Shown: in pieces, positions 4,483-23,914 of the stretch
How the letters are laid out: each line of letters starts with the position of its first letter
Position numbering within the stretch: the stretch's first letter is position 1
Assembly (NCBI RefSeq): GCF_017355955.1
Contig: NZ_JAFFID010000005.1
Coordinates: forward strand, 124,001-188,000
Reading direction: 5' to 3'
Source of the DNA: Sabulibacter ruber
Lineage (GTDB): Bacteria; Bacteroidota; Bacteroidia; Cytophagales; Hymenobacteraceae
Length of the DNA: 64,000 nt
Made by a program: the position numbers and the translations under genes
The notes under the pieces: model-generated
Database searches by the model: none
What the model was told of the DNA's origin: nothing
The model's input: only the letters and a program-made list of their open reading frames with translations

Positions 4483-7053
4483 TTAGCCTCTTGGATTCAG
4501 GGCTTCGTTGATGCGGTCAGAAAGATCCAGCAAGTGGTAGTTGCTTAAAGAATCTGACTGAGACGCCGCCGCCGATTTGATCAGGTTGTTGATGTTGCGC
4601 AGCTCGGCTTTGGCTACGGAGATCACGTCGCTGTCATTGATGTCCATGGCAGGAGCGGTGTTGCCGCCTCTGCCACCCATGGCAGCCTGAGCCGCGGTAG
4701 GTGCCGGAGCGGGTTTCACCAGGTCAATCAACTCCTGCACGTAGATCTTCTGCAGGTTACGGCGGTACACGTCAATGGCCTGCTTGTTTTTCACTTCCCT
4801 GAAGATAGAGTTGTTCATATCATTGAAGAAGTCGGTCACTTTGTAGGCTTTGGCACCGTCCAGGGCTTCACCGGCGATGAGTTTGGTCAACGTGGCGTTG
4901 CTGATGAGGCGGTTCAGTACGTTTTCCTGGCTACGGGAAACCACTACCATGGGGTTGGTACCAATGTTGTTCAGCACGTTAGGCGCCAGTAACCAGGTTG
5001 GCGTAGTGAACAATTGCTTGTCCAGGAACGCCAAGGCCTCTTTCTGGGTAGCCGCCGGAGTGCGCTCGTACACCGTTCCTTCCTGCTCCACGGTTTTAGG
5101 GTTCTCGTAGATACCGCCAATGTTCTTAGCCACGTGGCCCATGTAGCGGTTGAACTGACCGGTCAGCTGACCGTACATGTTCTCCAGGTTATCGTAGCCT
5201 TCGTTTTCCTCGCGGGTCCACTCAGGGAGTTTGGCCAGGATGCGCTGCAGGTTCTTAATGCCGTACTCAGAGGCTTTCATGGCGTTGTCGCTGAGGTCCT
5301 CGTTCTGTGAGTGCGGATCATCTGGGTTGGTTTCGGTCCCGAACCAGTTGCGGCGATTCTTCAGTTTCTCCACCGTCATTTTGTTCAGGACAGGTATCTC
5401 AGCCTGCGCACTCTTGGCGTTGGGCAGAACCCGGTAACCCCATTCAATCGCCCACAGGTCATAGTCACCAATCCTTGGGTAGATGCCTTTAGACGAGATG
5501 TTGTCTTCTGGCTGCGCTACGTAGTTGAAACGGGCGTAGTCCATGATAGACGGCGTGTGGCCGTGCTCTTCCACCCACTTCTTGTTGCGCAGGTTCTCTA
5601 CCGGCACGGTAGAGCTGGAACCGTAGTTGTGGCGCAAGCCCAAAGTGTGGCCTACCTCGTGCGATGACACAAAGCGAATCAAATCACCCATGAGTTCATC
5701 AGAGAACTCCATTTTACGGGCGCGTGGGTCAATGGCGGCTGCCTGCACAAAGTACCAGTCGCGCACCAGTTTCATTACGTTGTGGTACCAGTTGATGTGG
5801 CTTTCCATGATCTCGCCGCTGCGTGGGTCAGAGATGCTGGGACCGCTGGCGTTGGAGATCTCAGACGGCTTGTACACGATGGCCGAGTGACGGGCATCGT
5901 CCAGGCTCCAGTTTGGGTTCTCTTTGGGAGAAGGAGCCTCTTTTCCGATAATCGCGTTTTTGAAACCGGCTTTCTCAAAGGCTTTCTGCCAGTCGTTCAC
6001 CCCGGCAATGAGGTACGGCACCCACTTCTTCGGCGTGGCCGGGTCAATGTAGAACACGATGGGCTCTTTTGGCTCCACCAGCTCGCCACGCTTGTACCTG
6101 GCCATGTCTTTTTCCTTCGGCTCCAGTCTCCAGCGCTTAATCATCTGGATTTCCTTCACACCCTGTGGATTGGCGTCAAAGTCTGTATAACCCACCGTGA
6201 AGAAACCAACGCGCGGGTCAAAGTAACGCGGCTGCATAGGTTTCTTAGGTAGTACTACCATAGAAGTATTGATCTCAATGGTAGAGGAACCGTTCAGGTT
6301 AGAGTTTCCTCCGGCTCCACCGGCAGGAGCGGCCCCGAATCCAGTGGTAGGAGGGGTGAGCACGTACGTTTTCACGGTGGTCACTTCCACGTTCTGCGGA
6401 AAGCTGCGCACGTTCTGGATATAGCTGCGGTCCCCGATGAAGTTCCCCAACCGGAAACGGGTTTTGCCCGCGGCATTGCTGAAGGAGAAGATTTCGTTCT
6501 CGCCTTTGATGTAATCTGTTACATCAATAACGCTGCTCTTGTTGTTAGGTCCGTAGGCCGACACGTTGAACGCCGCCACAATGGCCTGCACGTTGGACCG
6601 CTGCACCGCCTGGTACATAGACTTGGTGCTGTCTGGGCTGTAGGTGGCGTAGGAGATCTTGCGCATGAAAATGCGGTCATCGGGACCTTTCTCAAACATG
6701 ATCACGGCGCTCCCGATTTGGTCCCCGGCGTAGCCTGAGGCAGAGCGCACCTCGGCCCCTGCCTTGGAAATACGGTTCACCACCAGAATCTCACGGCCCA
6801 GCACCGAGTCTGCCAGTTCAAAGAAGTACTTGTCTTCTACTTTGTGGGTCTTGAAAAAACCAGATTTGGACTGGGCTTTGTCGGTGATGACTTCGGCGTA
6901 AGGCTTTGGCTTGGATGATCTGGCAGCGTTGCCCTGCAAGCCGGCGGCTCCGGCTACCCGGCGCGTGGAATCGGCGGGTTGGGTACGACTCTGGGCCATG
7001 GCTACTCCGGCAAAGGTAGACACCAGCCCCAGCGTCAATAAGAACTTCTTCAT
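4483..7053 (-). CDS. zinc-dependent metalloprotease (DUF5117/DUF5118 family)
   Basis: This is a large (856 aa) exported protease with a signal peptide ending ...AGVAMAQ at residue 21. The extended metzincin-type zinc motif HEVGHTLGLRHN lies near residue 462, and a possible Met-turn (SIMDYARFNYV) about 50 residues later. The long N-terminal region with DSVLGREILVVNRISKAG and a middle with VRDWYFVQAAAIDPRAR match the Bacteroidota metalloprotease family that carries DUF5118, DUF5117 and DUF4953-like domains. It is monocistronic, has its own strong terminator, and its upstream gap is filled by REP sequences. Extracytoplasmic location is expected; substrate unknown. Confidence 0.9.
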   Translation of the reverse strand: MKKFLLTLGLVSTFAGVAMAQSRTQPADSTRRVAGAAGLQGNAARSSKPKPYAEVITDKAQSKSGFFKTHKVEDKYFFELADSVLGREILVVNRISKAGAEVRSASGYAGDQIGSAVIMFEKGPDDRIFMRKISYATYSPDSTKSMYQAVQRSNVQAIVAAFNVSAYGPNNKSSVIDVTDYIKGENEIFSFSNAAGKTRFRLGNFIGDRSYIQNVRSFPQNVEVTTVKTYVLTPPTTGFGAAPAGGAGGNSNLNGSSTIEINTSMVVLPKKPMQPRYFDPRVGFFTVGYTDFDANPQGVKEIQMIKRWRLEPKEKDMARYKRGELVEPKEPIVFYIDPATPKKWVPYLIAGVNDWQKAFEKAGFKNAIIGKEAPSPKENPNWSLDDARHSAIVYKPSEISNASGPSISDPRSGEIMESHINWYHNVMKLVRDWYFVQAAAIDPRARKMEFSDELMGDLIRFVSSHEVGHTLGLRHNYGSSSTVPVENLRNKKWVEEHGHTPSIMDYARFNYVAQPEDNISSKGIYPRIGDYDLWAIEWGYRVLPNAKSAQAEIPVLNKMTVEKLKNRRNWFGTETNPDDPHSQNEDLSDNAMKASEYGIKNLQRILAKLPEWTREENEGYDNLENMYGQLTGQFNRYMGHVAKNIGGIYENPKTVEQEGTVYERTPAATQKEALAFLDKQLFTTPTWLLAPNVLNNIGTNPMVVVSRSQENVLNRLISNATLTKLIAGEALDGAKAYKVTDFFNDMNNSIFREVKNKQAIDVYRRNLQKIYVQELIDLVKPAPAPTAAQAAMGGRGGNTAPAMDINDSDVISVAKAELRNINNLIKSAAASQSDSLSNYHLLDLSDRINEALNPRG

Positions 7054-7176
7054 TCTGATGTAAGCTTGTTAGTTGTGTAAAGGGTTGCGTGTAGTGTGTG
7101 ATTCACGCAGGCTTAGACCAACAGAAGGGAAGAAGGTTTAAAGAGGATAAGAGAAAAATAGAAAAATTTTGAGCAG

Positions 7177-7206
7177 GCGTTTTGGGCCTGTTTTTGGGAA
7201 AGAGGG
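7177..7206. repeat. dispersed GTTTT/AAAAC palindrome (partial)
   Basis: Left-half copy: GCGTTTTGGGCCTGTTTTTG, then GGAAAGAGGG; the AAAAC end is missing. Confidence 0.5.
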
Positions 7207-7230
7207 TAAGAAGTAGAGATAAACCCCTGG

Positions 7231-7298
7231 CGCGAGTCTCCAGACTCGTGACACGGGATGGGGGTAGTCTCCAGACTACCCTCGCTGCACCGCAGCGA
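7231..7298. repeat. extra REP hairpins left of the RAYT unit
   Basis: Three consecutive palindromes: CGAGTCTCCAGACTCG at 7232-7247, GGTAGTCTCCAGACTACC at 7263-7280, and TCGCTGC-ACC-GCAGCGA at 7282-7298. The first two share the AGTCTCCAGACT core of the long arms. Confidence 0.8.
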
Positions 7299-7331
7299 TA
7301 GTACGCATTGTTGTTTCCAAGCATTTCCGGT

Positions 7332-7396
7332 TCGTGGTTCCCGGCGAGTCTGGAGACTCGCATTATCCCAAGGCACGAGTCTGGAGACTCGCGCCA
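7332..7396. repeat. left 65-bp inverted REP arm
   Basis: Reverse complement of 8091-8155 with 64/65 matches. It contains two GAGTCTGGAGACTC hairpins. Confidence 0.9.
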
Positions 7397-7420
7397 GCTT
7401 TTCCTTGTGAGATTCCCTGT

Positions 7421-7461
7421 ACTGTTTTTCTGCTGTTTTTGGGAAACAGGCCTAAAACAAG
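7421..7461. repeat. dispersed GTTTT/AAAAC palindrome
   Basis: Good copy just upstream of the RAYT start: ACTGTTTTTCTGCTGTTTTT, then GGGAAACAGGCCTAAAACAA. Confidence 0.75.
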
Positions 7462-7499
7462 CATTTTCCTTCTGTTGCCAAATTTCGTATAAGTTTGCC

Positions 7500-8009
7500 A
7501 TGAGCACCAAATACAAAACCCGCAATCCAGAAGGTATTTACTTTCTAAGCATGGCCGTTGTGGAGTGGGTGGATGTATTTACCCGAAGGGAGTATTGTGA
7601 GCTACTAGTGGATAGCCTCAGGTATTGCATTCAGCAAAAGGGACTGGTGCTGCATGCCTGGGTCATAATGCCAAATCACTTGCACTTGATTGCATCCTCA
7701 ACAGAAAAGAGCTCTTTGCCCAATATTCTGAGAGACTTCAAGAAATTTACTTCCAATAAGTTGATTCAAGCTATTCAGGACAACCCGCTGGAAAGCCGGA
7801 GGCGGTGGATGCTTTGGATTTTCCAGAGCAATGGTCAACACAACTCTCAGAACACTCACCATCAATTCTGGCAGCAGAGTAATCATCCTATAGAGTTGGA
7901 TAGCGCCCATTTGATGGAGCAGAAATTGACCTATTTACACCAAAATCCGGTAGAACTGGGCTTGGTGGAAGAACCAGAACATTGGCGGTATAGCAGCGCA
8001 GTAGATTAA
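7500..8009 (+). CDS. REP-associated tyrosine transposase (RAYT, IS200-like Y1 family)
   Basis: This 169-aa protein is an HUH single-strand transposase of the TnpA-REP class. The HUH motif is His60-Leu-His62 within MPNHLHLIAS. The likely nucleophile is Tyr145 in TYLHQNPVELGLV, a context typical of RAYTs. I chose the ATG at 7500 (GCC ATG AGC) because the longer reading frame upstream runs through REP hairpins and is not protein-like. RAYTs bind and cleave REP palindromes and are thought to spread them; they are usually single-copy and not self-inserting like true IS elements. The gene is intact. The two REP arms around it support activity now or recently. Confidence 0.9.
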   Translation: MSTKYKTRNPEGIYFLSMAVVEWVDVFTRREYCELLVDSLRYCIQQKGLVLHAWVIMPNHLHLIASSTEKSSLPNILRDFKKFTSNKLIQAIQDNPLESRRRWMLWIFQSNGQHNSQNTHHQFWQQSNHPIELDSAHLMEQKLTYLHQNPVELGLVEEPEHWRYSSAVD

Positions 8010-8090
8010 GCGGGCGGCAAAGGCTTGCTTCCTCTGGTATATTTGGATTAGCTAATGTCTTGTTTCTACAACTTCTACGCTGGCCTACAC

Positions 8091-8155
8091 TGGCGCGAGT
8101 CTCCAGACTCGTGCCTTGAGATAATGCGAGTCTCCAGACTCGCCGGGAACCACGA
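8091..8155. repeat. right 65-bp inverted REP arm
   Basis: Inverted copy of 7332-7396 (one mismatch), between the RAYT stop and the end of the next minus-strand gene. Confidence 0.9.
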
Positions 8156-8172
8156 GCAGAAAAGCAGCCTCT

Positions 8173-23762: not shown

Positions 23763-23914
23763 ACTGAAATTTGCAAATCAGTGGTCGTTAGCCCCCTTCT
23801 ATGGCCTTCTATGGCGCGGAAGTTACTTCCGTGCCTTTCTTTTTTAATTGCTACTTCGCCACCAGCTATTGTCAGGGGCCTCACCAATGACTCAGCCACC
23901 ATCTCCCGCCCGCC

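Follow-up and report, generated by a model that had tools for sequence, protein, structure and literature searches.

The closest described systems to the locus considered here are the REPtrons of Bacteroidetes placed in subclass 2.6, the equivalent of Bertels group 5. Their RAYTs are about 179 aa long, occur in low copy number in Bacteroidota and carry the motifs NH[LIV]H, WQ and YIH[QN]NP with an SS motif in the tail, whilst the repeats that flank them and are dispersed elsewhere are described only as atypical secondary structures without the GT[AG]G foot (Quentin 2018, PMC6006769). The group 2 enzyme of E. coli, TnpAREP, is represented bound to a REP hairpin by the PDB entry 4er8. The E. coli REPs have a 5' GTAG and an AA-GC bulge in the middle of the stem and form inverted pairs (BIMEs or REPINs), and the gene is fixed in place; the enzyme cuts at CT and there is no evidence of tnpAREP mobility (PMC8266576). 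In Pseudomonas the dispersed unit is the REPIN, consisting of two inverted REPs (PMC3116915). In the TIRtrons the RAYT, then termed a TIRYT, is flanked by long terminal inverted repeats (TIRs), which have a GGGGWSAS motif and may be double palindromes (PMC3733652). The Y1 HUH catalytic fold is also that of the IS200/IS605 elements, in which a mobile, multi-copy tnpA has hairpins near its ends.

The stretch of DNA analysed, referred to as the window, is 64,000 nucleotides long and belongs to a draft genome of 6.16 Mb in 222 contigs (G000). A search of the window for the palindrome GAGTCTNNAGACTC with at most 2 mismatches gave 8 matches against 1.7 expected, and each of the 5 perfect matches is at a single locus, where a truncated RAYT gene (7500-8009, + strand) lies between two inverted arms. 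The arms span 74 nt with 95% complementarity (7324-7397 and 8090-8163) and have a core, 7332-7397 against 8090-8155 inverted, that matches at 65 of 66 positions; the first-pass annotation had given 64 of 65 for 7332-7396 and 8091-8155, with two hairpins in each, which is confirmed. The hairpins are of the form GAGTCT(GG/CC)AGACTC (GAGTCTGGAGACTC), two per arm at a spacing of 31 nt, and are foldable as single strands.

The inverted pair around the gene is made up of the right arm of an upstream unit and one downstream arm. The upstream unit (7227-7397, without strand) is a complete REP unit of the dispersed type, REPIN-like, with two inverted two-hairpin arms, outer ends CTGGCGC and GCGCCAG, and the arrangement of - arm, spacer and + arm that is found in most dispersed copies in the genome. 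Its left arm has as its outer hairpin a tagged REP, CTGGCGC-GAGTCTCCAGACTC-GTGAC (7227-7252, +), followed by the inner hairpins GGGTAGTCTCCAGACTACCC and TCGCTGCACCGCAGCGA (7262-7298), which recur in other units; the hairpins at 7231-7298 had been taken for past additions on one side, and are instead this left arm of a complete four-hairpin unit. The right arm (7332-7397, -) has its inner hairpin at 7344-7361 and its outer tagged REP at 7372-7397, reading CTGGCGC-GAGTCTCCAGACTC-GTGCC on the - strand. The downstream arm, the inverted copy (8090-8155, +), has a tagged REP at 8090-8115 and an inner hairpin at 8126-8143. A terminator-like hairpin of the type GGCCTGTTTT..GAAAACAGGCC is found at 7423-7465, and hairpins of this type adjoin many of the dispersed units.

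The RAYT product scores 106 bits against the NCBIfam equivalog REP_Tyr_transpos (NF047646, cut-off 80) and weakly, at 24.9 bits, against transpos_IS200, for which the cut-off is 55. It is a Y1 HUH protein with one catalytic tyrosine, the motifs being HLH at 60-62 (NHLH), FWQQ, Tyr145 within YLHQNP, and YSSA; the HLH and Tyr145 had been recognised in the first reading of the sequence and are present. The structure predicted by AF2 for the full-length protein of a sister species, from an alignment of 23 locus-derived sequences, has a pLDDT of 90 and its best PDB match is 4er8 (TM 0.68/0.75). Because motifs, length and phylum fit the published description (PMC6006769), the RAYT belongs to Bertels group 5 or subclass 2.6; the sister protein is of 183 aa with NHLH, FWQQ, YLHQNP and YSSA, and GTAG is absent from the foot of the hairpins. 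The gene is present as a single copy, with three further RAYTs in the genome and the nearest paralogs 48-51% identical. Whilst it shares the Y1 HUH fold and nearby hairpins with IS200/IS605, it differs from these elements in being single-copy, syntenic, below the IS200 cut-off and without any sign of gene mobility. The locus is best explained as a REPtron, a reading to which a probability of roughly 85% is given, in which a single-copy, vertically inherited and domesticated HUH/Y1 RAYT sits at a fixed place in Rufibacter, framed by the REP family that it probably recognises, and in which the mobile or once-mobile thing is the REP unit and not the gene.

A count of the arm across the genome had been proposed at the outset, and BLAST gave 64 matches in about 35 dispersed units, mostly inverted pairs about 60-300 bp apart. 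Perfect palindromes of GAGTCTNNAGACTC also number 64 genome-wide, against 0 for a reversed control pattern, and the RAYT is flanked by inverted REPs that are abundant elsewhere. The first-pass annotation was right that RAYT and REPs form a pair here and that the two-hairpin arms are of unusual length, and copies of the arm family are scattered through the genome. A unit opens with CTGGCGC and closes with GCGCCAG; the hairpin next to either end is separated by about 14 nt from an inner hairpin, and a spacer lies between the two inner hairpins. Copies become alike abruptly at CTGGCGC, the likeness falling away beyond CGGGAACCA, and a block of GGGTAGTCTCC(A/T)GACTACCC with TCGCTGC..GCAGCGA recurs in at least 7 other units. 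The best dispersed arm is 92% like the arm that flanks the RAYT. As in the REPINs of Pseudomonas the dispersed unit is an inverted pair (PMC3116915), but here the unit, of about 170 bp, has four hairpins, an outer tagged one and an inner one in each arm. The likeness to TIRtrons is in the long inverted repeats with double palindromes around a RAYT (PMC3733652), whereas the arms here are REP units, many copies of which have no gene with them, and their foot is common to other RAYT families.

The units were compared with those of the sister species, Rufibacter psychrotolerans SYSU D00308 (G002), which with R. ruber CCM 8646 (G001) is among the closest relatives. Ten of the 14 dispersed units fetched from G002 are co-located with a fetched G000 unit, and three more are shared on a syntenic contig, the RAYT locus included. 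Looking for empty sites, as had been suggested, succeeded in part: the site of the G002 element C22 is empty in G000, its flanks rejoined within a few bases, and is the sole nearly base-precise presence/absence site. C22 was nevertheless rejected as a base-precise empty REP site, the insert being a larger composite of 364 bp in which a different repeat forms the outer inverted arms, and C27 was rejected because its site had been replaced by unrelated DNA. Since G000 and G002 have most units in common, and the site of one or more G002 elements is empty in G000, the REP family is old, although some turnover has taken place. Beside some of the four-hairpin units (L009, L010, L022, L178, L223) there is a second repeat, GGAGACACTCGTAGGAGCTGCGCACACTACGAGGTC; at L223 it forms outer inverted arms around a four-hairpin unit, and G002 has this composite of about 360 bp whereas G000 lacks it at the same site.

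The transposase had been described as intact, which it is not. Codon 170 is TAA where the sister species has TAT (Tyr), so the open reading frame stops at codon 169; Tyr170 is invariant in the alignment of 23 RAYT proteins (members 42-75% identical to the first), and relative to the 183 aa of the G002 protein 14 conserved C-terminal residues are lost. Beyond the TAA the frame is still open (8010-8051, +), with 13 codons, 171-183, that read AGGKGLLPLVYLD without any amino-acid change and then the old stop, TAG, and the nonsense mutation is judged to be recent. The conserved tail of group 5 is incomplete in the G000 copy only, the syntenic orthologs having kept it, which sets this copy apart from subclass 2.6 REPtrons; the gene is a member of group 5 by descent, and its activity is in doubt. 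In E. coli TnpAREP the loss of 21 or 34 C-terminal residues abolishes binding and cleavage, whereas loss of the last 13 raises activity (PMC8266576). The defective proteins end 29 and 16 residues past the catalytic Y115 and the hyperactive one 37 (PMC8266576), and the G000 protein ends 24 past its catalytic Tyr, which by this analogy would put it nearer to the damaging cuts. Because 14 conserved residues are gone, present-day activity of the enzyme is doubtful or altered, and if the E. coli protein is a guide its loss or change is likely.

The REPtron reading could be refined further, with the G000 RAYT being a pseudogene or an altered, possibly deregulated enzyme, the REP family a relic, and the identity of the arms residual or the result of gene conversion between inverted arms. 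The chances of this are about even. The removal of 14 of 183 residues by a TAA at an invariant Tyr170 speaks for it, as do a protein end that falls between the two defective E. coli truncations (PMC8266576), a best dispersed arm of only 92% likeness and the fact that most units checked are common to the sister species. However, all catalytic motifs remain, a frameshift is absent, the E. coli enzyme without its last 13 residues is more active (PMC8266576), and the stop is possibly an assembly or base-call error in a draft of 222 contigs. The G000 gene is a natural tail-truncation allele.

Whilst the RAYT locus itself is an ordinary REPtron, it is the foot of the group-5 REPs that merits further attention. 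Two further RAYTs of the genome have other palindromes near them, GAGCCTCCGGCTC and GGAAGTTACTTCC, inside a common frame of TGGCGC...GTGYC, and three of the four RAYTs have a tagged stem family of their own; for the fourth, none was found by palindrome and tag search. A solo tagged REP of another family occurs in the window at 23811-23835 (+), reading ATGGCGC-GGAAGTTACTTCC-GTGCC, and the same stem is also found beside another RAYT of the genome (G000:C111:1719014). An unbiased search in which any two 5-mers could flank any palindrome, covering 73 group-5 RAYT loci from many Bacteroidota to within 450 bp and requiring a perfect stem, returned GGCGC/GTGCC as the top pair at 24 of 73 loci, or 31 of 73 when GTGTC and GTGAC are included, and none in three Markov shuffles; within the same 450 bp and with a perfect stem the tag was not found at 42 of the 73. 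The tagged loci are spread throughout the RAYT tree, including Saprospiraceae, Pedobacter, Fulvivirga and Bacteroidales, and the consensus foot, (C/A)TGGCGC-[palindrome]-GTGHC, is constant around many different stems. This consensus was not printed in the literature searched, a scope that stopped short of the supplementary REP table of PMC6006769 and of Bertels 2017.

Among 236 distinct copies a T precedes the foot in 98% and a C is fifth after the stem in 99%, and the foot starts with CT in 79% and AT in 18%, exactly where the similarity of copies ends. The fourth base pair of the foot, although left free in the search, is G.T 217 times over 55 different stems and a perfect pair 17 times, with A.C found 106 times, mostly at the same sites read on the other strand; as these copies include orthologs and duplicates and are not independent, the figures measure conservation and not separate events, and the same is true of the 217 copies that keep G.T against 4 with a restored G-C. 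The two strands of the G.T hairpin fold differently (-10.1 vs -7.9 kcal/mol). When the tag was sought with a centre of 11-14 nt and no palindrome required, G000 had 131 matches against 4 for the control, G001 172 against 5 and G002 178 against 4, and counts were above control in most of the family; on contig C178 the centre is palindromic in 16 of 21 tag matches. The type of stem varies with RAYT clade, and RAYT loci are enriched in the foot.

In place of the 5' GT[AG]G these hairpins have TGGCGC / GTGHC at the foot, and this foot is a good candidate for a signal of recognition and strand discrimination that replaces GTAG in Bacteroidota. It is tempting to go further, and we lean somewhat towards a bipartite code in the group-5 RAYTs of this phylum, in which the constant foot (C/A)TGGCGC / GTGHC with its obligatory off-centre G.T (A.C) would set the strand and cleavage site instead of GTAG, and the free stem would specify the pairing of RAYT and REP family. 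There is much in common with E. coli, namely the fold (4er8), the HUH motif and catalytic Tyr, the inverted REP pairs, a mismatch in the stem and a gene fixed in place. The difference is that E. coli has the 5' GTAG and the mid-stem AA-GC bulge, whereas here bases are conserved on both sides of the hairpin foot and a single G.T lies four bases in. This asymmetric G.T in an otherwise palindromic hairpin could take the part of the E. coli bulge. Compared with subclass 2.6, whose repeats have been described simply as 'atypical' (PMC6006769), the constant foot and constant off-centre G.T are additional.

By analogy with E. coli TnpAREP, the outer palindrome would fold once in single-stranded form, as on the template of the lagging strand. 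Choice of strand and site may then depend on the enzyme reading the constant foot together with the off-centre G.T, which is A.C in the opposite strand, whilst the stem may tell it which REP family is its own. Cleavage would take place adjacent to the foot through Tyr145, the CT at the start of the foot being a candidate cleavage site because the E. coli enzyme cuts at CT (PMC8266576), and joining of the cut strand elsewhere would allow units to be spread or converted. Group-5 REPs have so far been described as atypical and found by eye, and with a defined foot they become open to a simple pattern search in any Bacteroidota genome. The foot also separates a constant signal, a candidate mark of cleavage and strand, from a variable stem, a candidate for family specificity, and this turns the coevolution of REP and RAYT into a lock-and-key question that is directly testable.

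A quite different explanation would make the hairpins RNA elements, such as transcription terminators, that simply build up next to genes and have nothing to do with the RAYT. Many dispersed units are indeed just downstream of coding regions and an action at the RNA level has been proposed for REPs of other systems (PMC3733652), yet the hairpins have no run of T after them, separate terminator-like hairpins often adjoin the units, and neither the tracking of RAYT clade by stem type nor the enrichment of the foot at RAYT loci fits with independence from the RAYT. It is thus considered improbable.

The REPtron reading is also that which agrees with the history of the locus. Five species (G000, G002, G001, G013 and G006) have the RAYT next to the same mutase and/or zincin genes, with amino-acid identities to the G000 copy of 96% in G002, 77% in G001, 74% in G013 and 73% in G006; the gene is single-copy and vertically inherited and does not move with its REPs. 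The dN/dS between G000 and G002 is 0.12, which indicates purifying selection. The arms vary: in R. ruber both are present on both sides of the gene, in G006 they are single and in the reverse orientation, in G013 there is just the upstream unit, and the downstream arm of G002 has decayed. Still less probable than terminators, and rejected on the synteny of the RAYT across species, is a young, IS-like or TIRtron-type mobile unit with the arms as its terminal inverted repeats, recently inserted and perhaps still moving, as although the arms are 64/65 identical, a Y1 transposase gene lies between inverted repeats and TIR-flanked RAYTs (TIRYTs) have been described (PMC3733652), the same locus is in four other species at 73-96% RAYT identity, the genome has no second copy of the gene (nearest paralogs 48-51%), about 35 dispersed units consist of the arms with no gene, and in G002 the gene stays whilst its downstream arm has decayed. 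The first-pass annotation had called the unit young or under selection, and youth is contradicted by a RAYT syntenic in five Rufibacter species and by dispersed units mostly shared with the sister; its suggestion of continued activity finds no support, given the nonsense codon, the synteny and the lack of mobility evidence for tnpAREP (PMC8266576).

The identity of the two arms is better explained by their homogenisation or constraint than by recent insertion. G000 and G002 do not differ over some 116 bp of the left arm and its flank, and this was considered as a sign of selection and rejected, a recombination tract being an adequate cause: positions 6600-8085 of the window are mostly 93-99% identical to G002 inside flanks of 77-90%, and the dS of the RAYT is 0.215 against 0.41-0.66 in the flanking genes. 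The 93-99% stretch ends at the downstream arm, in what looks like the edge of a recombination tract. In G001 both arms have a common variant, CCTTTGGCACGAGACT, that is missing in G000 and G002, with 89.6% identity within against 82-85% between, which is no more than suggestive of concerted evolution of the RAYT-flanking arms; the flanking REPs of orthologous rayt genes have been reported to change together (Nunvar 2010, PMC2817692).

Five other Rufibacter genomes (G005, G010, G011, G012 and G015) hold 13-126 GAGTCTNNAGACTC palindromes without a close ortholog of the cognate RAYT, so that REP copies either persist without one or are served by another enzyme, and REPs are reported to persist in E. 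coli strains that have lost their REPtron (PMC3733652). These genomes count against the REPtron reading, as do the single nearly base-precise presence/absence site, with its composite insert, and the 42 RAYT loci at which the tag was not found. No RAYT remnant was found within 1.5 kb of the mutase in genomes lacking the RAYT, a distance to be read against the 2.8 kb that separates the gene itself from the mutase in G000 and G002. Relatives with many REPs and no cognate RAYT allow the persistence of REPs in the absence of their transposase to be tested.

Two smaller features of the orthologous loci may be added. In G013 and G006 a palindrome of 52-58 nt lies between the REP unit and the start of the RAYT. 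In R. ruber the arms have a variant hairpin, GAGACTAAAGTCTC (L092 of G001, 5943-5972 and 6642-6671), which is flipped to its reverse complement between the aligned arms, as if hairpins invert in place.
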